This document shows, one piece after another, positions 1 through 9,588 of a stretch of DNA of 11,943 bases; within the stretch, counting starts at the first letter, position 1; the number at the start of each line of letters is the position of its first letter. The notes under the pieces were generated by a model. That model searched no databases and was not told the DNA's origin. It was given only the letters and a program-made list of their open reading frames with translations. The DNA comes from DAOVGU01 sp030637775 [NCBI: bacterium] (GTDB lineage: Bacteria; Ratteibacteria; UBA8468), in NCBI GenBank assembly GCA_030637775.1, contig DAOWFY010000023.1, positions 1 to 11,943 on the forward strand, read 5' to 3'. The position numbers and the translations under genes were made by a program.

Positions 1-121
1 CATCCCCGGCGGAGGAAAAATCTTCTATGGGAAACCCCGCGGAGGTAAGTAAACTCATCAATCTCTCCGGGGAAAGGTCAAAATCAACGTATTCCTTCAA
101 CCACTGATAAGAGTATCTCAT
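1..121 (-). CDS. pheT: Phenylalanine--tRNA ligase beta subunit, N-terminal fragment
   Basis: This is the 5' end of a gene that runs off the left edge; 40 complete codons are visible. The translation opens MRYSYQWLKEYVDFDLSPER and continues into LMSLLTSAGFPIEDFSSAGD. This is the characteristic PheT N terminus, where an (S/N)WLKEYVD element is followed by a helix ending in a (T/S)xAGxxxE-type motif. PheT pairs with PheS to charge tRNA-Phe in the cytoplasm. The ATG is at 119-121. There is no strong Shine-Dalgarno, only a GAG about 6 bases upstream, and that GAG lies in one arm of a hairpin whose loop holds the start codon. No pheS lies upstream; the preceding gene is a HAD hydrolase beyond a repeat. 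pheS could be elsewhere in the genome. Identification is confident despite the short length because the whole visible segment matches the family pattern. Confidence 0.9.
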   Translation of the reverse strand, partial: MRYSYQWLKEYVDFDLSPERLMSLLTSAGFPIEDFSSAGD

Positions 122-130: not shown

Positions 131-320
131 GGAGGTTAACTTCAGCGGCACGCTCGCAGTGATACTCCCTATGAGATGCCTCCTCTGTCTGGGCATTCAT
201 CCGGCATCTAATGCACGCTTAAAGTAAACCTCCTCCTATTGGTTTACATACCAAGGCGAGGAGTATTTCTGTAGCGGCCTTGTTAGTGACTCGCGCCCCT
301 CTGTGTCTCCCCACTAATCA
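122..320 (-). other. Structured non-coding region upstream of pheT (candidate leader or small RNA)
   Basis: No gene is seen here. The stretch carries several perfect inverted repeats in series: 283-288 with 312-317 (TTAGTG/CACTAA), 252-257 with 277-282 (CAAGGC/GCCTTG), 224-230 with 241-247 (GTAAACC/GGTTTAC), and 174-180 with 203-209 (AGATGCC/GGCATCT). The first two stems abut at 282/283. Nearer pheT, 161-167 (GATACTC) can pair with 111-117 inside the gene, and 170-177 (TATGAGAT) can pair with 115-122 over the start codon. I looked for T-box motifs (tRNA-acceptor-binding bulge, AGAGA, terminator with U-tract), tRNA, SRP RNA and tmRNA signatures and recognise none. It could be a pheT mRNA leader, an independent RNA, or a single copy of a second repeat family. 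Minus-strand frames contain stops and no convincing protein. Confidence 0.45.
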
Positions 321-323
321 TGA

Positions 324-422
324 GAGATAACTGGGGTTTGTAAGCGAGTTGGCGGTTATGCTCCCAGAGCACGATAGTGCCGAGGAATAAGAAAGCCCGA
401 GTGAACAAATTCCAGTCGTCTC
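324..422 (-). repeat. Intergenic palindromic repeat, copy A (subtype 1)
   Basis: This is one of four related imperfect palindromes in the window (others at 1502, 5308 and 9189). The outer arms are GAGATAACTGG on the left and CCAGTCGTCTC on the right. The conserved interior includes GCGAGTTGGCGGTTATG and CGAGGAATAAGAAA. The apex is the small palindrome GCAC-GATA-GTGC, shared with copy C. Similarity to copies C and D continues to about 433 through CGAGCCTC. The preceding gene (HAD hydrolase) ends at 436, so on the transcribed strand the repeat begins essentially at its stop codon. The outer arms of this copy have diverged most. No U-tract follows, so it does not look like a canonical terminator. 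Confidence 0.85.
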
Positions 423-435
423 TTTCCGAGCCTCC

Positions 436-1479
436 TCATAAGATGAGTAGTTTTCCGCCAGGATTAAATTTGCCGTACAAAGTCTTTCTTATCTCCTGGT
501 TTTCCCGATAAGCACTGATATGATTATAACCTGGTTTTTCCCAGGCAGGTTCAGTAAGAAATGCTTTGTCAAAGGCGGTTAAAAGATGCTTTTCAAATTC
601 TCCCCTATACTTTCCCCGGGTAAACATTTCAAAGGCTCGCGGGAATTCATTCCAGGCCTTTTGTTCTTTGCCCGGTGGAGTTGAATAGAAAAGTCCATTA
701 TTTGCTTTTACCGCCTTTAAATCCCCTTTTCCGTCTCCAATCATCATTATCTGATTATCTCCATATCCACCGGCCTTTTTTGCCACTTCAATATGGTGGC
801 CCTTTGAGCCCATTTCCTGTCCCGCAATAATTTGAACATCGCCCGCAATTCCCTGCGTTTCCCAATAATCTGCTAAATCCCTATAAGGTGTTTTGGAAAC
901 AACCATAATATCCGCAGATTGGCTCATCAATTGCAAGGATTCCTTGACATTATCAAAGGGCGGAATTTTTGCCGAGATATGGGGAAATGTCCGATTAACC
1001 GCTTCGCTCCATCCTAAAAGTTTGTATAAAGATAAATCGGTTGGGTTTTTATCAAGAAAACCCTCCAGACTGGGATTTCCCAATCCCAATTTATTCTCTT
1101 GCGCATCATTGATATATTTATTCAATGAGGCTGTATCGGGCAATTTCACATCTTTTTCGCTCAATACCCGGTTAACATCTTCTCTTTTGGCAAGAGCCTT
1201 AAGGGTAAGCTGGACAGCAATAAACCGGTTACATCCTCGCTCTTTCGAAAAAAGATTGTAGTATTCTGCCACCTCTCTGAAATAGGATTCAATACCCCAA
1301 AGTGAATAGAACTCCATAAATTGGGGATGGAAGATCAACATCTGCTTTCCGTTCATATTATCGGTGATACAGCCATCGGTATCGATGGCAACTAAGAAAT
1401 CCTTTGTTTTTCTAAAGCCTCTCAATTGCTGCTCCGCATCTTCCTTTACCTGCTGTACAGTGAGTTTAATTAAAGCCAT
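436..1479 (-). CDS. HAD-superfamily phosphatase/hydrolase
   Basis: This is a cytoplasmic hydrolase of the haloacid dehalogenase superfamily, 347 residues. Motif I is AIDTDGCITD, with nucleophile Asp33 and Asp35. Motif II is VVSKTP with Ser195. The motif III lysine is probably Lys226 in GSKGHH, and motif IV is IGDGKGD with Asp249 and Asp253. All four catalytic motifs are intact, so the enzyme should be active. About 160 residues lie between motifs I and II, indicating a large helical C1-type cap that sets substrate choice. I cannot name the substrate. Its position after a gnd/phosphofructokinase unit suggests a sugar phosphate or related metabolite, by inference only. The ATG at 1477-1479 has no clear Shine-Dalgarno; the 22 bases between it and repeat B are A/T-rich. 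Repeats flank the gene on both sides, so it may be a separate transcription unit. Confidence 0.85.
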   Translation of the reverse strand: MALIKLTVQQVKEDAEQQLRGFRKTKDFLVAIDTDGCITDNMNGKQMLIFHPQFMEFYSLWGIESYFREVAEYYNLFSKERGCNRFIAVQLTLKALAKREDVNRVLSEKDVKLPDTASLNKYINDAQENKLGLGNPSLEGFLDKNPTDLSLYKLLGWSEAVNRTFPHISAKIPPFDNVKESLQLMSQSADIMVVSKTPYRDLADYWETQGIAGDVQIIAGQEMGSKGHHIEVAKKAGGYGDNQIMMIGDGKGDLKAVKANNGLFYSTPPGKEQKAWNEFPRAFEMFTRGKYRGEFEKHLLTAFDKAFLTEPAWEKPGYNHISAYRENQEIRKTLYGKFNPGGKLLIL

Positions 1480-1501
1480 TTTTTTAATATTAGTAGAATA
1501 G

Positions 1502-1597
1502 GAGATGACTGGGGTTTGTGAGCGAGTTGGCGGTTATGCCGCAGGTATGAAATACCGAGGAATAAGAAAGCCCGAGCGAACAAACTTCAGTCATCTC
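1502..1597 (-). repeat. Intergenic palindromic repeat, copy B (subtype 2)
   Basis: The copy lies between the phosphofructokinase stop (1608) and the HAD gene start (1479). The left arm GAGATGACTGGGGTTTGT pairs with the right arm ACAAACTTCAGTCATCTC apart from two positions. Inner pairings GGC/GCC and TTAT/ATAA lead to the apex GGTAT-GAA-ATACC, a 5-bp hairpin. It is nearly identical to copy D. Unlike A, C and D, it lacks the CGAGCCTC extension on the side facing the upstream gene. Confidence 0.9.
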
Positions 1598-1607
1598 TAA
1601 TTTCATT

Positions 1608-2918
1608 TTATTTATAGGCTGTGGGTGTATACTTTCCGCATATCTTGGGAGCGGTTATTTCCTTAAATCCAGTAAATTGAGGAAGATCTCCGCCAATCAA
1701 TGGCATTGCCCAATTTACAAAGTTATCCGTTACATCTACCTTGTTGGAAGCGATCCACTCTCCCGGAAACTCCCTTTTTGAATTAGCCACTTCCTCCAGT
1801 AAAACCTTATCATAAGTGACCCGATAGGTATCCCCCGGTATTCTTACAATTGCGGACATAAAACCATTTTTCCCGGAAAGTGCCTTTCTTACTGCGTAGG
1901 CACCCACCTCATAGGACTCCTTTCTGTCAATCTCAGAGACATAAGCAATTTCTCGCCTCTGGCGAGTTCCAGGTCTTTCCGATCTGGCTATTCCCCGAAC
2001 CTTCAGCCTGCTTTGGGCCCTCCCCTTACTATCCTTTCTGTCATTACCATTAAGGTAATCAACAAGGACCTGTTCAACCGTTCTTTCCGAAGCGGAAAAC
2101 TGCTCATTGCCAAAACTATCCCTTAAGATTCCTAAATCTCCTATTCCTGCTCCTTCGCTGATAACAACGATGCACCGATGATGACTGCTTAATTTTTCGT
2201 TAACCGCCTCGGTTATGAATTCCAGGTTCCCTGCGTAATCGTTTTTAGGGAAAACCTCCGGAAGGATGATGAGTAAAGGCATCTTTCTTTCCGGATCGGC
2301 CAATCTGGCGGCGGCCGGGATAAAGCCAATTTTTCTTCCCATCACGCCAATGACCAAAACGGGATCGCTGGTATAACTTGCTTTGTTCTCCTCATCTGCC
2401 TCCAAAATATTGATCGCGGTATTTCTTGCCGTACTTCCATAACCCGGATTATGATCACAAATGGCAAATGTACCATTGGATTGCAGGGGTCCGCCGACAT
2501 CATTATCAATTGTTTTGGGAATTCCTGTGCAGACTATCTCTAAATTATTTCGCCGGGCTAACTCACCTACCTTATTTGCCGTATCCATCGAATCCCCGCC
2601 ACCACAATAAAAAAAATAACCAACGTTATGTTTGTCAAAGACTTCAATAATTCTATTTAAATCCTCATCGCTCCTTATCTTATATCGGCAACTTCCGATT
2701 GTCCCCGCCGATGGGGTTTTTTCCAGAAGAGCTATTTGTTTTGGATCTTGAGCAGAGATATCGAGAAGTTCCTCCTTAAGCACGCCCAGGATACCCATCC
2801 TTGCTCCATATATTTTATCTATTTTTTTTGCTGCTTTTAATCCATCGATTGCCCCGCGGATGCTATTATTTATTACCGCCGTTGGTCCACCCGATTGGGC
2901 GATAACTGCATTTTTCAT
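1608..2918 (-). CDS. pfp: 6-phosphofructokinase, pyrophosphate-dependent type
   Basis: The product (436 residues) interconverts fructose 6-phosphate and fructose 1,6-bisphosphate in the cytoplasm. The N-terminal AQSGGPTAVIN (7-17) is the phosphodonor loop. GGGDS at 106-110 matches the GGDGS motif of ATP enzymes, with Asp109 in place of the glycine (E. coli Gly104). PKTIDND at 134-140 carries catalytic Asp138 and Asp140, plus Lys135 where ATP enzymes have Gly124. Asp and Lys at these two positions are the known signature of PPi-dependent enzymes, so pyrophosphate is the likely donor and the reaction reversible. MGRKIG (193-198) is the substrate-binding MGR motif. The usual first aspartate of GGD(G/D)S is Gly108 here, an oddity. 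The ATG overlaps the gnd stop by 4 bases (ATGA), so translation is coupled to gnd. Length suits the roughly 400-residue PPi clade. Confidence 0.92.
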   Translation of the reverse strand: MKNAVIAQSGGPTAVINNSIRGAIDGLKAAKKIDKIYGARMGILGVLKEELLDISAQDPKQIALLEKTPSAGTIGSCRYKIRSDEDLNRIIEVFDKHNVGYFFYCGGGDSMDTANKVGELARRNNLEIVCTGIPKTIDNDVGGPLQSNGTFAICDHNPGYGSTARNTAINILEADEENKASYTSDPVLVIGVMGRKIGFIPAAARLADPERKMPLLIILPEVFPKNDYAGNLEFITEAVNEKLSSHHRCIVVISEGAGIGDLGILRDSFGNEQFSASERTVEQVLVDYLNGNDRKDSKGRAQSRLKVRGIARSERPGTRQRREIAYVSEIDRKESYEVGAYAVRKALSGKNGFMSAIVRIPGDTYRVTYDKVLLEEVANSKREFPGEWIASNKVDVTDNFVNWAMPLIGGDLPQFTGFKEITAPKICGKYTPTAYK

Positions 2919-4402
2919 CTCGTTATCTCTTTTTCCGGCCGGTCATCTGACATCCACTCGGTGTGGAACTCTCTTATTTTTCCTTCACCGGTAGTGATAA
3001 TCCTCGGGTCATCCGGTCCGCCTATTTTAAAATAGCCGTGAGCGCCGAAATAGTCTCTCTGTAAGGCAGCTACTTGAGCGGAAAACATCACCGGGCTACA
3101 AAGTTGCACAATATAGTCATAAGCGCTGTCCATCGCAAGGCCTGGCACTCTGGCCTGGTGTGCCATTTGAATAAAGAGTCCAAGTCTTTCAAGGTTTTTA
3201 GACACAAACTCAGAAAATTTTGGAGCGGCAAGAAGGTTTGGCAAATCCGCATTTTCTTCATAAGACCTGGTAATATCATCAAGAAATTGAGCCCTGATGA
3301 TACATCCCGCTCGCCAGATTTTAGCAATTTCTCCCAGGTTCAGGTTAAATTTGTATTCTTTTGAAGCGCTCTTTAATAAAGCCATACCTTGAGCGTAAGA
3401 AGAAATTTTGGCGATGTATAAAGCGTCATGAGCAAGTTCAACTAATTCGCTCTTCTTTTCCTTAGATGCAGGTTTCTTTAGAGTTACTATTTCTGACATT
3501 TTTAATCGTAAATCCTTATCCTGGGACATCTCCCGGGAAAATACAGCGGCAGCAATTGTGGGAATCGGCACCAGTAACTCCAGGGCACTCTGGACGGTCC
3601 AGGTGCCGGTTCCTTTCATCCTTGTAATATCCGCAACTCTGTCCACAAGGTACTCATCTGTTCCTTTGTGCTTTTCTCTTGCGCTCTCTGCGGTAATTTC
3701 AATAAGGTAAGAACGTAAAACGTCGTTTTCGCCATTCCACTCAGCCATAATATCCGCAATCTCTTCGGAGCCCATCCCTAAATTTTTGAAAAACCAGGCT
3801 ATCTCACCAATCAATTGCATATCGCCATATTCGATTCCGTTATGGGTCATTTTAACAAAATGCCCCGCTCCATCAGGACCGATATAAGTGACGCATGGTT
3901 CTCCGTCATCGGCTTTACCTGAGATGTCCTTAAATATTTTTTCAACGAGGGAATATGCTTCTTTCTGGCCGCCAGGCATCATCGATGGCCCTTTTAACGC
4001 ACCCTCCTCTCCTCCAGAAACTCCGGTACCAATGAAAAGGAACCCTTTTTGAGTTAATTCGTTATTTCGTCTGATCGTATCTTTGAAGTAGGAATTCCCG
4101 CCGTCGATAATTAAATCCTCTTTTTCAAGCAAAGGAACGAGTTGATTAATAAAATTGTCTACCGGTTCGCCTACCTTGACCATCAGCATAATTTTTCTCG
4201 GGGATTCAAGGGAGGCTACAAAATCCTTTAAGTCATAAGTACCGATTATCTTTTTTTCTTTTGCCGGACCTTCAACAAAAACTTTGGTTTTTGCGCCAGT
4301 CCGGTTGTATACCGCAACAGCATAGCCTTTGCTTTCCATGTTTAAGGCCAGGCTTTTCCCCATTACTTCCATCCCGATGACACCAATATCTGCTTTTTCC
4401 AC
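2915..4402 (-). CDS. gnd: 6-phosphogluconate dehydrogenase, decarboxylating
   Basis: Gnd oxidatively decarboxylates 6-phosphogluconate to ribulose 5-phosphate with formation of NAD(P)H, in the oxidative pentose phosphate pathway. Near the N terminus are the Rossmann motif IGVIGMEVMG and the cofactor motif YNRTGAKT; the Asn-Arg pair favours NADP. Next come GTGVSGGEEGALKGPS and the catalytic HFVKMTHNGIEYGDM (Lys and Asn), then GCIIRAQFL. The C-terminal substrate tail QRDYFGAHGY ends in FHTEW, with about 13 residues more than E. coli Gnd just before FHTEW. The reading frame is open upstream to 4465, but I choose GTG at 4400-4402: it has AAGGGGG about 7 bases upstream, and the protein then begins VEKADIGVIGM, as the family does. 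This gives 495 residues and a 19-base gap after the dehydrogenase gene. The gene overlaps pfp by 4 bases. Confidence 0.96.
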   Translation of the reverse strand: MEKADIGVIGMEVMGKSLALNMESKGYAVAVYNRTGAKTKVFVEGPAKEKKIIGTYDLKDFVASLESPRKIMLMVKVGEPVDNFINQLVPLLEKEDLIIDGGNSYFKDTIRRNNELTQKGFLFIGTGVSGGEEGALKGPSMMPGGQKEAYSLVEKIFKDISGKADDGEPCVTYIGPDGAGHFVKMTHNGIEYGDMQLIGEIAWFFKNLGMGSEEIADIMAEWNGENDVLRSYLIEITAESAREKHKGTDEYLVDRVADITRMKGTGTWTVQSALELLVPIPTIAAAVFSREMSQDKDLRLKMSEIVTLKKPASKEKKSELVELAHDALYIAKISSYAQGMALLKSASKEYKFNLNLGEIAKIWRAGCIIRAQFLDDITRSYEENADLPNLLAAPKFSEFVSKNLERLGLFIQMAHQARVPGLAMDSAYDYIVQLCSPVMFSAQVAALQRDYFGAHGYFKIGGPDDPRIITTGEGKIREFHTEWMSDDRPEKEITR

Positions 4403-4421
4403 TATTTTCCCCCTTATCTGT

Positions 4422-5246
4422 CTAAACTCCCGAAAAGGCGTTAAATCCTCCGTCAATAGGAACAACTATTCCCGTTACAAATCTTGAAGCCTCAGAGGCA
4501 AGCCAGATACAAGCACCAGTCAATTCTTCGGGGTCTCCAAATCTTCCCATGGGTGTATGCTTTATTATTGTCTCTCCTCTGGGTGTCAGCTTATTTTCTT
4601 TATCAAGAAGAAGGTACCTGTTTTGGGCGGTAAGAAAAAATCCGGGAGCAATGGCATTAACCCTTAAATTCTTATTGTACTCGGAAGCAAGGTGTGTAGC
4701 CAGCCACTGGGTAAAGTTGCTCACTGCCGCTTTAGCCGCAGAATATCCCGGTATTCGGGTTAAGGGACGAAAAGCATTCATCGAGGAGATATTTATGATT
4801 GAGCCACCCGTTTTATTTTTCACCATCCTTCTTCCAAATACCTGGCAGGGAAGAATCGCCCCTCCAAAAAGGTTAAGGGCTACTACTTTCTCTAAAGCCG
4901 GTAAAGGAAGATCAAAAAAGGAAAGCTCCTTGGAAGTGGTAGCCTCCTTGATATTGCCCCCCGCGCTGTTAACTAAAATGTCTATTCGGCCAAAATCTTT
5001 AATCACTTTATCGCAGCAAACCTTTATTTTTCCAATATCCATAACATCGATAGAATACCCTTGCGCTTTTATTCCTTCTTTTTTAAATTTCTTCACAATT
5101 TTATCTGTGTTGACAATATCGCAGATCGCGATTTCCGCCCCGGCTTTTCCCAATCCTTTACCGATAGCTGAACCCAAGATGCCTGCTCCTCCGGTAACTA
5201 CCGCTTTTTTGTCTCTTAGGCTAAATAGACCTAAAATCTTTTCCAA
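4422..5246 (-). CDS. SDR-family oxidoreductase, UxuB-like (D-mannonate/fructuronate reductase type)
   Basis: This is a classical short-chain dehydrogenase/reductase of 274 residues. The cofactor loop TGGAGILG (18-25) is followed by NSAG (93-96), Asn125, Ser155, and the YSAAK active site with Tyr168 and Lys172, so the full Asn-Ser-Tyr-Lys tetrad is present. PGFFLTAQNR, LLLDKE, LTPRGE and HTPMGRFGDPEEL are features I associate with the SDR-type D-mannonate oxidoreductases such as Bacillus UxuB, which reduce fructuronate to mannonate. TGxxxxLG in place of TGxxxGIG also fits that group. No uxuA (mannonate dehydratase) is visible, so the substrate could be another sugar acid. The start is TTG (5244-5246), with a strong AAGGAG Shine-Dalgarno 8 bases upstream. 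It leads a unit with gnd and pfp. The leader contains a short hairpin (5267-5289) and repeat C. Confidence 0.85.
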   Translation of the reverse strand: MEKILGLFSLRDKKAVVTGGAGILGSAIGKGLGKAGAEIAICDIVNTDKIVKKFKKEGIKAQGYSIDVMDIGKIKVCCDKVIKDFGRIDILVNSAGGNIKEATTSKELSFFDLPLPALEKVVALNLFGGAILPCQVFGRRMVKNKTGGSIINISSMNAFRPLTRIPGYSAAKAAVSNFTQWLATHLASEYNKNLRVNAIAPGFFLTAQNRYLLLDKENKLTPRGETIIKHTPMGRFGDPEELTGACIWLASEASRFVTGIVVPIDGGFNAFSGV

Positions 5247-5266
5247 TTTTTTCTCTCCTTTCTGTG

Positions 5267-5289
5267 CCCCACACCAAAATCTGGTGGGA
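5267..5289 (-). other. Small hairpin in the leader of the SDR gene
   Basis: On the transcribed strand CACCA-GATTT-TGGTG forms a 5-bp stem that can lengthen to CCC/GGG with a 2-base bulge. It lies a few bases upstream of the Shine-Dalgarno of the SDR gene. There is no U-tract, and it could be incidental. Confidence 0.25.
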
Positions 5290-5307
5290 GGTTATAAGTA
5301 ATTGTAG

Positions 5308-5405
5308 GAGATGACTGGGGTTTGTGAGCGAGTTGGCGGTTATGGCCCAGAGCACGATAGTGCCGAGGAATAAGAAAACCCGAGTGAACAAAGTCCAGTC
5401 ATCTC
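5308..5405 (-). repeat. Intergenic palindromic repeat, copy C (subtype 1)
   Basis: The outer arms are GAGATGACTGG and CCAGTCATCTC. The apex GCAC-GATA-GTGC is identical to that of copy A. Similarity to copy D extends outward on the left through ATAAGTAATT (from 5294). Similarity to A and D extends on the right through CGAGCCTC (to about 5416). The iolB stop (TAA, 5406-5408) and its last codons lie inside this right-hand extension, so repeat-related sequence encodes the extreme C terminus of IolB. Confidence 0.88.
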
Positions 5406-6185
5406 TTAACGAGCCTCCTTTACCCAACTGTATCTTGGATCATCCTTTGGCTTTAAAACCCTTTTTTTGCCGGCTAAAATCCAGAGGTAATAGATACGAT
5501 ATCCCGGTATCACCCCTACCGGATGATAACCTCGGGGAATGGCCACGAGATCATTGTTCTTAATCGTAAAAATCTCATCATTTTTTCCATTATACAACCT
5601 CATTATTCCAAAACCATCCGCCGGCTCCAATTTAAAGAAATAGAGTTCCTCCTGTTTTGATTCAAAGGGAAGGTTATCTCTATCGTGCTTATGGGGAGGA
5701 TAACTGCTCCAATTTCCTTTTCTATTTATGGTTTCACCGACCAGGATATGCTCTGCCCTTGTTCTTTCGTCAACAATATCATAAACGTCTCTTGAGAAAT
5801 TATCCTTACCCACCCTTCTTAATCTTACCTTATCCGGGGTTATCAGAGTAACTCTTCCTTCCCTTTTTGCTTTTACTTTACAGACAGCAACTTCACAGAG
5901 AGATTCTCCTTTTAATTCATAGGAAGTTTCGGGTGGAAGGTAAAGGGTGGTAGCCTTTCCTGCAAAAGGATTTTTTCTCTTCCCTAAAAGAGGGAAGAAG
6001 TGGTTATTTGTTTTTATGGTGCATTTCCCTCCCAAAATTACCAATACCGCCTCTTTATCCTCTATCCTCTCTCTAAAGGTATCATTCCTTTTTAAACGAA
6101 TTATTCCCAGTTCGATAAGTTTTAAAGATTTTATATTTTGGGTAAGAGAGGCGTAGCCTTCCTTTTCACAATAATGGTAATGCAT
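5406..6185 (-). CDS. iolB: 5-deoxy-glucuronate isomerase (IolB)
   Basis: IolB converts 5-deoxy-D-glucuronate to 2-deoxy-5-keto-gluconate in myo-inositol catabolism. The protein is a double cupin of the KduI/IolB fold. The signature GNWSSYPPHKHD (158-168) gives metal ligands His165 and His167. EELYFFK (179-185) gives a glutamate ligand, GFGIMRLY follows, and RGYHPVGVIPGY (218-229) gives His221. These match IolB rather than KduI. I choose ATG at 6183-6185 (259 residues). It has AAAGGA about 7 bases upstream and begins 4 bases after the RNase stop, whereas the longer reading frame to 6221 overlaps that gene by 32 bases without a better ribosome site. No other iol gene is visible, so it may serve another deoxy sugar acid. 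The stop lies within the edge of repeat C. Confidence 0.92.
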   Translation of the reverse strand: MHYHYCEKEGYASLTQNIKSLKLIELGIIRLKRNDTFRERIEDKEAVLVILGGKCTIKTNNHFFPLLGKRKNPFAGKATTLYLPPETSYELKGESLCEVAVCKVKAKREGRVTLITPDKVRLRRVGKDNFSRDVYDIVDERTRAEHILVGETINRKGNWSSYPPHKHDRDNLPFESKQEELYFFKLEPADGFGIMRLYNGKNDEIFTIKNNDLVAIPRGYHPVGVIPGYRIYYLWILAGKKRVLKPKDDPRYSWVKEAR

Positions 6186-6189
6186 AGTT

Positions 6190-7437
6190 TTATCCTTTTT
6201 TAAGTCTGCCTGTCCCATCACAGTAAGGACAATTCTCGAAATAAGAGGCGTTCAGGCTTTCGGTTGTTCTTTGCCGGGTCATCTCTACCAAACCCAACTT
6301 TGAAATCTGTAGGATGTTTATTCTTGCTTTACCCCTCTCCAATTCCTCCTCCAGAGATTTGTGGACATATCTCTGATCGGATGGAGATTCCATATCAATA
6401 AAATCAATGATGATGATCCCGCCCAGATTTCGCAGTTTAATCTGACGGGCGATCTCTTTCGCCGCCTCTAAATTTGTTTTCAGAATTGCTCTTTTTACAT
6501 TCTGCCCGCGCACCCCTTTTCCGCTATTAACATCGATGGAGACCAAAGCCTCCGTCTCCTCAATAATAATGGAGCCACCATTTTTTAACCAGACTCTCTC
6601 CTGAAAAAGCTTCTCTATTTCTCTTTCTATCCCTTCATTTTTAAAAAGGGGAATTTCTTTTTGATAGAGCCTCACCTTCCTTTTAAGAAGGGGAGCATGT
6701 ACCTTTAGAAATCTGAGAATACTCCTATATTGGAAAGGAGAATCGACAACAATTTCATCGATATCGGTAAAAACAAGATCTCTGATGGTGCGCAAATCTA
6801 AATTTAACTCCTGATGAAGAAGGAAAGGAGCGGATAGCGTTCTTGCTCTTGTTTCAATCCTTTGCCAATTCCTTAACAATTGCTTAATTTCAAGAGCAAA
6901 GGTCCTCTTTCTCTGACCCTCGGCTAAGGTGCGAACGATAATGCCCATCCTCTGGGGAACTAAATTCTCCAGGAGACTTTTTAATCGCTCTCGCTCCTTT
7001 TCCTCCTTAATTCTTTTGGAAATTCCTCTCCTTTTTTCCAGGGGAAGGAGCACGAGATATCTGCCGGGCAGAGAAAGGCGAGTGGTCAATTTAGGTCCCT
7101 TTGTTCCAATGGAGTCCTTGATAACCTGGACTAAAATTTCATCTCCTTTTTTGACCTTTTCGAGTGAACGAAGGGGAGTAATCTCCTCCCCTACCAAATC
7201 TCCCTGATAAGGAAGTTCTTCCGAAAAATCTTCGATGGGTAGGAATCCCTGTCTCTCTTCCCCAAAATTCAGAAAAGAGGCATTCAAGGCCGGAATTACT
7301 CTCTCTACTTTAGCCTTATAGATATTTCCTGCGATTGATTTCTTCGCACTTTTCTCCATAAAGAAGTTCTCTAAAATCCTATCTTGAGTGATTGCTACCC
7401 GGGTACTGTCTTTATTATAATTAATTAAAACTTTCAT
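6190..7437 (-). CDS. rng: Rne/Rng family endoribonuclease, short form
   Basis: This is a single-strand-specific endoribonuclease of the RNase E/G family, acting in rRNA maturation and mRNA decay. The S1 domain is at about 35-120, with GNIYKAKVERVIPAL and ERQGFLPIEDF. A 5'-sensor/RNase H-like region follows. The catalytic DNase I-like part contains IDVNSG (Asp302) and IDFIDM (Asp345). The zinc-link CPYC has Cys403 and Cys406. These positions match E. coli RNase E (303, 346, 404, 407) almost residue for residue. The protein then stops at residue 415, nine residues after the second cysteine. The small domain that helps build the tetramer, present in both RNase E and RNase G (about 489 residues), is therefore missing. 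The active site and the zinc-link that joins protomers are intact, so a dimer is plausible. The ATG overlaps the stop of the solute-binding protein gene (ATGA). Confidence 0.93.
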   Translation of the reverse strand: MKVLINYNKDSTRVAITQDRILENFFMEKSAKKSIAGNIYKAKVERVIPALNASFLNFGEERQGFLPIEDFSEELPYQGDLVGEEITPLRSLEKVKKGDEILVQVIKDSIGTKGPKLTTRLSLPGRYLVLLPLEKRRGISKRIKEEKERERLKSLLENLVPQRMGIIVRTLAEGQRKRTFALEIKQLLRNWQRIETRARTLSAPFLLHQELNLDLRTIRDLVFTDIDEIVVDSPFQYRSILRFLKVHAPLLKRKVRLYQKEIPLFKNEGIEREIEKLFQERVWLKNGGSIIIEETEALVSIDVNSGKGVRGQNVKRAILKTNLEAAKEIARQIKLRNLGGIIIIDFIDMESPSDQRYVHKSLEEELERGKARINILQISKLGLVEMTRQRTTESLNASYFENCPYCDGTGRLKKG

Positions 7438-9146
7438 CTTATATATATTTCCTCAATATTATGAAAGAGACCACCGTAACTGGTGGGATGAAGATTGCCA
7501 AGCTTATTCCTCACCGCATAAAGACTGGCAGAATTGACGGTATAGATTAAAGGCAGTTGTTTACTTACAATCTCCTGCCATTGGTCATAAAGTATTTTCC
7601 TTTTATTCCGATTAAGCTCTCGAACTGCCTCCTCAAAGATTTTATCAATCTTTTTCTCCCAGGCGGAAGCTGCGCTTTTTTGTCGGGGATGCCAGATATG
7701 GAGTTGTCCGGCAGAGGCCCAGACATTCCTTCCGCTATGGGGCTCTATTCCGCCGGTAAGCCCGATTAAGACCGCCTCCCAATCAAAGGAGGCATCCAAC
7801 TTTGTCACCAGGGTGTTGAAGTCTAAGGGGGTAAAGTGAACCTTCATTCCCAGTTTGGTAAGGTCATCTCTAATGATATTGGCGATATTAATCCGTTCTA
7901 AATTATCATTATTGGTGAGCAGAGAAAATTCCACCCGGTTTCCTTCCTGATCAAAAAGAGCCCCATTTTGAATCTTAAATCCTATTTTCTCTAAAAGTTC
8001 TTTTGCTTTCTTCAAATCGTAGCGATACTTTTTTACTGCGGGATTATAGAAGAAGCCACAACTTTCATTCATCGGACCATCCTGGGGATAGCCAAAACCG
8101 GCTAAAACATTGGCAACCATCGTCTCTTTATCAATGGTATAAGCAATTGCCTCTCGGAATTTACGGTTGGTAAACCACCTTAATTTTATGGGAGAAATGG
8201 GGGAGGCTGGGTTCTGATTAAAGACCAAAAAATTTGCTCCCAGGGCCGGACCTGCATTATGGATAGAGAAATTCCCTTTTCTCTCCTTTGGTTTCAAGAA
8301 GGAATAATCCTGACCCCTCAGAGAGAGGGCATCAATCTCTCCTGCCTGAAACTTCAGCAACTGGGAGTTCTGGTCAGGAACAATCAAAAAGATAATTTTG
8401 CTGATGTAAGGTAATCTTTCTTCATTTTTTCTCTTCCAGCAATAGGGATTCCTTTCTAAAATAATCTTCTGTCCCGCTAAATACCGCTTTAGCCTGAAGG
8501 GACCGGTTCCCATGATTTGAGAGGGAATAGTATTGATTCCCCAGGTAGAATTAAATCTCTTCTCCGCCACCGTCTTCTCTAAAATATGCTTGGGCAAAAT
8601 CTCCTGTCCCAATACCCTCAGGAAAGGAGCAAATGGAGAGGATAACCTGAAGCGCACCTTGTACGGAGAGACCTTTTCTACCAAAAAGGGTTTGCCTTTT
8701 ATGGTGAGAATATCGCGGGAACTGGTAGGGATTTCAGGATTATAGATAAGTTTATTGTAGGTAAAGACAACATCATCGGCGCTAAATTTTTCTCCATCAA
8801 ACCATTTTACATCGTCGCGTAAATTAAATGTCCAGGTAAGTCCGTCTGCGCTTTTCTCCCAGTCTTTAGCAAGAGCGGGCATCACCTCCGTTGTCACCCC
8901 ATCGGTCTCGGTAAGACCCTCAAAGAGGAAACCGGTTATGGCGGTGGTGCTTGTCTCCTTAGCAATGATCGGATTGAAGGACTTGGGATCTGAGGTCGTG
9001 CTTAAGATCAGCGTTCCTCCATACTTACCTTGCCTCCCGGCAGGCAGGCCTTTCGGTTTCTTCAGGTGCTCAAGGGACTTTTTGGAAGGACATCCTACGG
9101 AGAGAAAAAGAATAAGATAAAAAAATAAGAGACAACATTTTTTCAT
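7434..9146 (-). CDS. ABC transporter family 5 solute-binding lipoprotein (peptide/oligosaccharide type)
   Basis: This is an extracytoplasmic substrate-binding protein of the DppA/OppA type (570 residues). It delivers peptides, or in some members nickel or oligosaccharides, to an ABC permease. MKKCCLLFFYLILFLSVGC is a lipoprotein signal peptide with lipid-attachment Cys19; serine at -3 is slightly off consensus. Family motifs follow: YGGTLILSTTSDPKSFNPI, FEGLTETDG, AKDWEKSADGLTWTFNLRDD, WFDGEKFSADDVVFTYN and MGTGPFRLK. I choose ATG 9144-9146. The upstream ATG at 9174-9176 adds ten residues before the MKK n-region and sits in the conserved flank of repeat D. Neither has a clear Shine-Dalgarno. 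No permease or ATPase gene is nearby, so this looks like an orphan binding protein or one whose transporter lies elsewhere. An in-frame palindrome encodes residues around 33-40. Confidence 0.92.
   Translation of the reverse strand: MKKCCLLFFYLILFLSVGCPSKKSLEHLKKPKGLPAGRQGKYGGTLILSTTSDPKSFNPIIAKETSTTAITGFLFEGLTETDGVTTEVMPALAKDWEKSADGLTWTFNLRDDVKWFDGEKFSADDVVFTYNKLIYNPEIPTSSRDILTIKGKPFLVEKVSPYKVRFRLSSPFAPFLRVLGQEILPKHILEKTVAEKRFNSTWGINTIPSQIMGTGPFRLKRYLAGQKIILERNPYCWKRKNEERLPYISKIIFLIVPDQNSQLLKFQAGEIDALSLRGQDYSFLKPKERKGNFSIHNAGPALGANFLVFNQNPASPISPIKLRWFTNRKFREAIAYTIDKETMVANVLAGFGYPQDGPMNESCGFFYNPAVKKYRYDLKKAKELLEKIGFKIQNGALFDQEGNRVEFSLLTNNDNLERINIANIIRDDLTKLGMKVHFTPLDFNTLVTKLDASFDWEAVLIGLTGGIEPHSGRNVWASAGQLHIWHPRQKSAASAWEKKIDKIFEEAVRELNRNKRKILYDQWQEIVSKQLPLIYTVNSASLYAVRNKLGNLHPTSYGGLFHNIEEIYIR
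9029..9048. repeat. GC-rich palindrome inside the lipoprotein gene
   Basis: TGCCTCCCGGCAGGCA, extended by one wobble and one C-G pair, is a near-perfect palindrome with one symmetric C/C mismatch. It encodes GLPAGRQG, in the linker between the lipidated cysteine and the mature YGGTL domain. The peptide is unlike the Lys-rich linker around it, consistent with a small mobile palindrome inserted in frame where extra residues are tolerated. Confidence 0.6.
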
Positions 9147-9188
9147 TAAAGACAATGGTAGTTGCGCAGCAATCATAAGTAATTACAG

Positions 9189-9284
9189 GAGATGACTGAG
9201 GTTTGTGAGCGAGTTGGCGGTTATGCCGCAGGTATGAAATACCGAGGAATAAGAAAGCCCGAGCGAACAAACTTTAGTCATCTC
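9189..9284 (-). repeat. Intergenic palindromic repeat, copy D (subtype 2)
   Basis: The arms GAGATGACTGAGGTTTGT and ACAAACTTTAGTCATCTC pair over nearly their whole length. The apex is GGTAT-GAA-ATACC, as in copy B. The left flank shares ATAAGTAATT with copy C (from 9175), and the right flank shares CTTTCCGAGCCTC with copy A, reaching the secG stop (9295-9297). Relative to copy B, one arm changes G to A opposite an A-specified partner, which improves pairing at that site. Confidence 0.9.
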
Positions 9285-9294
9285 TTTCCGAGCC

Positions 9295-9588
9295 TCATTT
9301 TTCCTGGCTAATTGGTGCTTTCTCTTTTTTCAACTCCTCCTTAATGATGGAGGTGGAAGAAAATCTTGAGGAAAGCATCGCTAAGAGAAGAGAGGTAACG
9401 ATGAAGCCGGCTGCCAGGATTGTGGTTGCCCGATTCAAAACGGCCGAGGTCTGGGCACCAAAGACATTCTCTGCTCCACCTCCTCCAAAGATATTGGCCG
9501 TTGCCGCCCCTTTCCCGCTCTGCAAAAGCACCGCCGCAATCAGAAAGAGAGCAAAGCTCACATGAAGAATTATGAGAAAAGTATACAT
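9295..9588 (-). CDS. secG: Protein translocase subunit SecG
   Basis: SecG is the small inner-membrane partner of SecYE that helps SecA-driven export. The 97-residue product has two membrane segments (about 2-22 and 53-74). Between them is the family loop LLQSGKGAATANIFGGGGAENVFGAQTS, shown here by LLQSGKGA, FGGGGAENVFG and the small-residue run. A charged Lys/Glu-rich tail follows. Length and order of parts are typical. The ATG (9586-9588) lies 11 bases after the stop of the large secreted-protein gene in a very A/T-rich gap with no recognisable Shine-Dalgarno, so it is probably read from the same transcript. Its stop codon directly abuts the edge of repeat D. Confidence 0.95.
   Translation of the reverse strand: MYTFLIILHVSFALFLIAAVLLQSGKGAATANIFGGGGAENVFGAQTSAVLNRATTILAAGFIVTSLLLAMLSSRFSSTSIIKEELKKEKAPISQEK

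Follow-up and report, generated by a model that had tools for sequence, protein, structure and literature searches.

What are the long palindromes that recur between genes on contig C177, and how did they come to lie there? The window, that is, the whole stretch of 11,943 nucleotides (nt) that was analysed, is contig C177 of the draft genome (G000; 1.397 Mb, 83.5% complete) of DAOVGU01 sp030637775, a member of the Ratteibacteria. It was compared with three relatives of the same taxonomic family, G001, which belongs to the same genus, G002, and G003. The window carries four copies of a core repeat, which we regard, with a probability of about two in three, as a non-autonomous palindromic interspersed element, forming one module within a nested mosaic and moved by an enzyme acting in trans. 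It would constitute a family that resembles miniature inverted-repeat transposable elements (MITEs) and bacterial interspersed mosaic elements (BIMEs) and is new relative to the literature searched. The four copies are as follows.

323-423, plus strand: core repeat copy 1, apex type GAGCACGATAGTGCC, inside a composite spacer of 314 nt.
1500-1598, plus strand: core repeat copy 2, apex type GGTATGAAATACC.
5306-5406, plus strand: core repeat copy 3; its orthologous site lacks the repeat in G002 and holds a degenerate piece in G003.
9187-9285, plus strand: core repeat copy 4, with 98% identity to copy 2.

All four copies described in a first-pass annotation of this DNA were present, with ends 1-2 bases further out on each side than noted there. 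Each is a near-complete palindrome of approximately 100 nt. The outer arms are mutually complementary, as that annotation had also stated, and the blocks GAGTTGGCGGTTATG and GAGGAATAAGAAA of the interior show no difference among the 4/4 copies. All four lie on the plus strand, and the adjoining genes lie on the minus strand. With copy 2 as the blastn query, the other three window copies were retrieved at E values of 9.2e-44, 2.6e-29, and 8.5e-25. When each strand of each copy was folded, none of 200 dinucleotide shuffles equalled it (z from -4.2 to -8.2). These E values and the shuffle folding test exclude a chance origin of the four copies.

The high copy number predicted from the window was found in the genome. 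A blastn search of G000 yielded 34 pieces, which were merged by hand count into 32 distinct places, so the sequence is not confined to the four loci of the window. Of these places, 24 are complete or almost complete copies, among them one on C139 that a contig end truncates; the others are three mini hairpins, one copy with an exchanged apex, one half copy, and three further copies truncated by contig ends. Altogether 5/32 places touch contig ends, as is usual for repeats that break assemblies. The mini hairpins (43-45 nt; two in L005 and one in L006) keep the outer stem and have lost the interior, and their junctions fall at a short AGCGA repeat that borders the interior. At L007:7963-8100 of G000, the apex is replaced by a longer hairpin, and similar exchanges occur in L083 and L084 of G003.

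A search of 61 genomes was then made with a covariance model derived from 21 copies, under stricter filters that may lose weak matches. Matches occurred in four of the 61, all of the window's family. In G000, 34 rows were returned, representing 29 distinct places and five reverse-strand duplicates; G001 gave two rows (one place, both strands), G002 two, and G003 five. An exact inner-pattern scan of the GTDB collection detected 16 loci, six of which scored with the model, in three metagenome-assembled genomes (MAGs), namely G003, G001, and G002. The phage and plasmid collections contained no match to the repeat, and in IMG/VR seven loci fitted the exact pattern and none scored with the covariance model. 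Within the collections searched, the repeat is confined to a single family. Six copies from relatives each showed 83-97% identity to their best-matching G000 copy; orthologous gene segments showed 69-95%.

Next, for seven G000 copies, namely the four of the window, two from L016, and one from L014, the orthologous sites in G001, G002, and G003 were examined, as the first-pass annotation had proposed. Two of these 21 comparisons were impossible, copy 4 in G001 because of a contig break and the L014 site in G001 because no orthologous flank was retrieved. The repeat was absent in 18 of the 19 testable comparisons, and a degenerate piece occurred in the remaining one. Orthology held on both flanks in 11/19, of which 10 lacked the repeat and one, copy 3 in G003, held the degenerate piece. 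Orthology held on one flank in 8/19, all without the repeat: copy 1 in all three relatives, copy 3 in G001, L016:2021 in G002, and L016:8893 in all three. Sites without it included tight spacers and spacers with other repeats. For instance, the spacer orthologous to that of copy 2 lacks the repeat in G002 and G003 and holds another repeat in G001, and the copy 4 site is without it in G002 and carries a different repeat in G003. Other palindromic repeats occupied the orthologous place in 4/19 comparisons: a TCATTGCGAG-type palindrome at the copy 2 and L016:2021 sites in G001 and at the copy 4 site in G003, and another palindrome, separate from that type, at the L014 site in G003. As a side observation, the place of window copy 2 in G001 (L070, about 4380-6670) holds an insertion of approximately 2 kb that resembles an insertion sequence, in addition to the TCATTGCGAG palindrome. 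The four window copies are not conserved at the same loci, and absence in 18/19 comparisons, 10 of them flanked by orthologs on both sides, indicates that the repeat has moved or amplified. Mobility of the family is therefore well supported.

Two further sites illustrate such differences. At L016:2021, the G000 protein ends in ELIQVKR and that of G003 reads ELIRLKKRRGHR by manual reading; judging from these letters, the end of the inserted repeat seems to supply the stop codon. In the reverse case, the only full copy of G001 lies in a 309-nt spacer, between open reading frames (ORFs) that we take to be GspE-like and GspF-like, and the corresponding spacer has 12 nt in G002 and other sequence in G003. 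The G000 contig ends at the matching place.

The orientation of the copies was strongly biased. With the element strand defined as the plus strand of the window, and with simple ORF calls, the gene at the right end was antisense to the element in 26/28 G000 copies (25/28 by script; L026 was corrected by eye) and in 9/9 copies of the relatives; 4/32 G000 copies were left out, their right neighbour being missing from the sequence examined. Both exceptions are in L007, one (261-361) between a tRNA gene and the following ORF of the same direction and the other (7963-8100) between divergent ORFs. The right end fell -11 to +14 nt from the 3' end of the gene in 21/28 G000 copies (20 plus L013) and in 8/9 copies of the relatives. 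In L013 (2169-2267), a core copy follows the RNase P RNA gene at a distance of 11 nt, in the same orientation as the copies that follow protein genes. Among 34 copies (27 of G000 and seven of the relatives), the element strand, which is opposite to the mRNA of the right-end gene, folded better in 32/34 with RNA energies and in 34/34 with DNA energies. Counting all cells of the G000 copies, G.T pairs on the element strand numbered 72 versus 19 A.C, and the private pair states were five G.T versus six A.C.

The core repeat is also embedded in a mosaic. An outer palindromic shell surrounds several core copies, and in the relatives it is also found around quite different interiors. The modules beside copies 1 and 4 are as follows.

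122-435, no strand assigned: composite spacer of 314 nt, whose minus-strand reading starts with GGAGGCTCGG and ends with CCGAGTATATT.
140-320, plus strand: second dispersed repeat family, approximately 175 bp, beside copy 1, with many matches in the relatives, mainly in G001.
424-435, plus strand: stop-codon-side end module TTCCGAGCCTCC, which reads GGAGGCTCGGAA on the gene strand.
9147-9186, plus strand: left half of the outer palindromic shell (GACAATGGTAGTTGCG...ATAAGTAATTAC), flanking copy 4.
9286-9296, plus strand: stop-codon-side end module TTCCGAGCCTC.

The composite at 122-435 fills the whole spacer from the TGA stop (436-438, minus strand) of the ORF at 436-1479 to an ATG (119-121, minus strand) that presumably opens a PheT-like N terminus. 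The spacer appears to consist of dispersed modules, and from stop to start it is bounded by a variant of the companion-element ends described below. In six G000 stretches on core-bearing contigs (99,259 bases, core copies left out and overlaps removed), 8/30 spacers of at least 50 nt had another match in the sampled G000 sequence, compared with 0/94 coding control segments. The end module GGCTCGGA occurred 26 times in the sampled loci, which were chosen for holding such elements; 21 occurrences were intergenic, and 18 of these lay close behind a called stop of the same strand. Further dispersed repeats were seen: one of approximately 155 bp with many matches (L072:5007-5163, also in G000, G002, and G003), and three short families with many matches in the relatives (L016:9061-9133, L016:192-256, and L016:3797-3871).

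We propose that the repeat spreads through the genome of its host by being moved in trans by the enzyme of another element. Copies would move as a folded single strand, the window's plus strand, antisense to the neighbouring mRNA; we infer this from the shared form, in which G.T pairs are retained mostly on the element strand. An unlinked enzyme, possibly a resident Y1 transposase but of uncertain class, would act on them; insertions would persist where they are least harmful, directly behind gene ends, and individual copies would then age without detectable selection. The private mutations numbered 13 in the arms (44 columns) versus eight in the interior (41 columns; p 0.39), a pattern that, in a test of little power, fits a structured source form whose copies may then have aged freely.

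Several observations weigh against this reading. The flanks, inspected by eye, displayed no constant target-site duplication, the closest empty sites being too diverged, and loss could also explain one full copy in G001 versus 32 places in G000. No mobilising gene was linked to any copy in the searched sequence. The orientation bias is stronger than expected of a purely selfish element, and the test for selection on single copies, with 23 G000 copies, is weak. Moreover, pairing exceeded that of shuffles in three of five measures: paired cells made up 97.8% versus 96.8% in shuffles (0/500 reached it), cells changed on both sides numbered 12 versus 3.1 (0/500), and the covariation measure was reached by 2/500. 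For pairs changed on both sides, 69/500 shuffles reached the observed value, and further pair types were fewer than in shuffles (499/500 as high). The both-side changes were all confined to the apical helix. This excess of pairing indicates some constraint, at least on source copies.

The excess of pairing in some measures also speaks for a functional 3'-untranslated region (3'-UTR) element, in which the hairpin is kept to stabilise, process, or punctuate the upstream mRNA. A role of this kind would also account for the orientation, and it is consistent with the position of the right end within -11 to +14 nt of gene 3' ends, including that of the RNase P RNA gene, and with an interior that is highly conserved across genera. 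In addition, the excerpted text of PMC2229807 reports orientation to be crucial for mRNA destabilisation by ERIC. Nevertheless, the better-pairing strand is the opposite of the mRNA, orthologous gene pairs exist without the repeat, and private mutations were not significantly rarer in the interior, although that test is weak. Likewise, none of the 14 predicted intrinsic terminator sites overlapped any of the four window copies (13.2 sites were expected by chance). We therefore consider the 3'-UTR role unlikely, though it is the strongest of the alternatives.

A somewhat poorer case can be made for a repetitive extragenic palindromic (REP)/BIME family mobilised by its own REP-associated tyrosine transposase (RAYT), close to the IS200/RAYT mobilisation suggested by the first-pass annotation. 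The palindrome, the intergenic 3' location, the high copy number, and the composite arrangement all agree with it, and Y1_Tnp genes were found in 4/4 genomes of the family, two in G000 and six in the three relatives. However, none of the eight Y1 loci (1.8-3.3 kb each, from four incomplete genomes) contained the core, the shell, or the second family. Three Y1 genes (L028, L029, and L138) instead lie between unrelated GGGGTCAG inverted repeats of approximately 24-28 nt, and a fourth locus, L139, holds one partial match to that repeat. An alignment of the copies with 40-nt flanks, inspected by eye, contained no constant GTAG or CGTC tag as defined in the excerpt of PMC3733652, and full copies of about 100 nt, or even minis of 43-45 nt, exceed the REPtron unit size of 20-40 bp. 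Mobilisation by a cognate enzyme was thus not borne out, and we hold this explanation to be doubtful; a Y1 enzyme acting in trans is possibly the mobiliser. A search of the four genomes for an autonomous parent bounded by such ends, using the left-arm 14-mer at 0-1 mismatch, was unsuccessful; outside recognised copies, the 14-mer occurred three times in G000, once at a contig end, and once in G001, and these four places were left uninspected.

Insertion of an RNA-templated (retro) element through reverse transcriptase activity would account for the strand-biased G.U pairs, yet RVT_1 was detected in 0/4 family genomes, though 3/14 control genomes were positive; a reverse transcriptase could be missed because the four genomes are 77-93% complete, and we give this origin very little credence. 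Vertical inheritance of old duplicated spacers, or misassembly, is similarly improbable and already largely refuted, since the degenerate copy at the orthologous site in G003 stands against 18/19 comparisons without the repeat and copies in four separate MAGs.

Among known systems, the repeat shares with the bacterial MITEs ERIC, IRU, and RU-1, as characterised in the excerpt of PMC2229807, a length of approximately 100-200 bp, noncoding sequence, a stem-loop spanning the whole element, and an intergenic location; orientation relative to genes also matters for ERIC in that account. Being short, noncoding, multicopy, bounded by terminal inverted repeats, and variably present at orthologous sites, it has the features of an ERIC-like MITE. 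It differs in being nested in other palindromes, strongly oriented, and confined to a single family within the searched collections, and neither TA ends nor a target duplication was shown for it; the distinction is one of description, not of sequence comparison. With REP/BIME and RAYT systems (excerpts of PMC3733652 and PMC2817692) it has in common mosaic palindromic units, a position mostly downstream of genes, and Y1-type transposases in the genome, and its extragenic, mosaic, composite arrangement is that of a REP/BIME. It is longer than those units, however, with no GTAG/CGTC tag seen and no unit at the Y1 genes. The three resident Y1 genes resemble TIRYT, as outlined in the excerpt of PMC3733652, by their long unrelated terminal repeats.

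The genes neighbouring the window copies are ordinary metabolic and housekeeping genes. Pfam identified phosphofructokinase, a short-chain dehydrogenase, KduI, a family 5 solute-binding protein, and SecG among the ORFs beside the copies, and the ORF at 436-1479 had no Pfam match at 1e-5. At the gathering score, Rfam gave no match for the repeat in the window and companion loci, and sub-threshold matches had E values of at least 0.65. Relaxed thresholds likewise produced no credible match for the core or its companions, and a slight resemblance of the companion tail to the 3' end of a group I intron received no support in these Rfam searches.

One junction in the window bears on this companion element.

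6183-6192, minus strand: junction TAA-AACT-ATG with a 4-nt spacer, between an RNase E/G-family ORF and the KduI ORF.

Between the same stop and start codons, G001 (L070) holds a companion composite of 358 nt that begins with GGGAGGCTCGGAG and ends with GTCCGAACATACCT. The junction reads AAGGATAA-AACT-ATG in the window and AAAGGAGTAA, 358 nt of element, and ATG in G001; 6183-6192 is the cleanest empty site for the composite. The 12-mer ATAGTCCGAACA of the start-side tail occurred eight times in G000 and 12 times in G001 but was absent from G002 and G003, and its reversed control occurred nowhere. An ATG that opens an ORF followed in 20/20 occurrences (L191-L210), with a gap of 4 nt in 17, 5 nt in one, and 7 nt in two; L198, counted at 4 nt, has a second in-frame ATG 1 nt past the motif, and L205 and L209 represent one gene seen in both genomes.

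These data raise the idea of a class of spacer elements with GGAGGCTCGGA behind stops and ATAGTCCGAACATA before starts, which would enter between the ribosome-binding motif and the ATG and whose hairpin would possibly restore binding; as a whole, we regard it as speculative and rather improbable. By folding out as one long hairpin, the companion may place GGAGG or the original motif close to the AUG and so restore a ribosome-binding site. In the predicted fold of the 314-nt composite, a closed foot is flanked on one side by unpaired GGAG and on the other by the last five bases before the ATG, likewise unpaired. In seven hand-chosen composites, shuffles reached the observed foot pairing in 2/40 cases for window copy 1, 4/40 for L208, 21/100 for L198, 26/100 for L195, 32/40 for L072, 37/40 for L199, and 40/40 for L200, so that two composites support a split ribosome-binding site, two support it weakly, and three do not. 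In L208, the motif is not free because the predicted fold pairs its first GG. None of the 20 tail-bearing genes had GGAG, GAGG, or AGGA at -15 to -5, versus background genes with a motif in 18/73 before the first ATG and 32/73 before any nearby start, and eight hits at internal ATGs; the 20 genes amount to approximately one observation, because that stretch is mostly the repeat itself. Exact GGCTCGGA lay within 420 nt upstream of only 2/20 tail occurrences, four of the 20 having less than 160 nt of upstream sequence. Several genes that follow a core copy retain a recognisable binding motif near the start, and GGCTCGGA also occurs behind a stop between convergent genes (L134), with no start there to serve. 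The Beggiatoaceae TAACTGA repeats, as presented in the excerpt of PMC4679880, resemble the companion tail in being dispersed, in lying a few nucleotides before starts, and in the rarity of ribosome-binding motifs, but those are tandem heptamers, whereas the companion tail terminates a long structured element.

This dispersed family of palindromes comes from a candidate phylum that the literature searched seldom mentions. The family's orientation bias, strand-biased pairing, and nesting in other palindromes are clues to the site choice of such elements. Should the stop-to-start polarity of the companion elements serve a function, the way translation starts within operons would be undergoing change through mobile hairpins.

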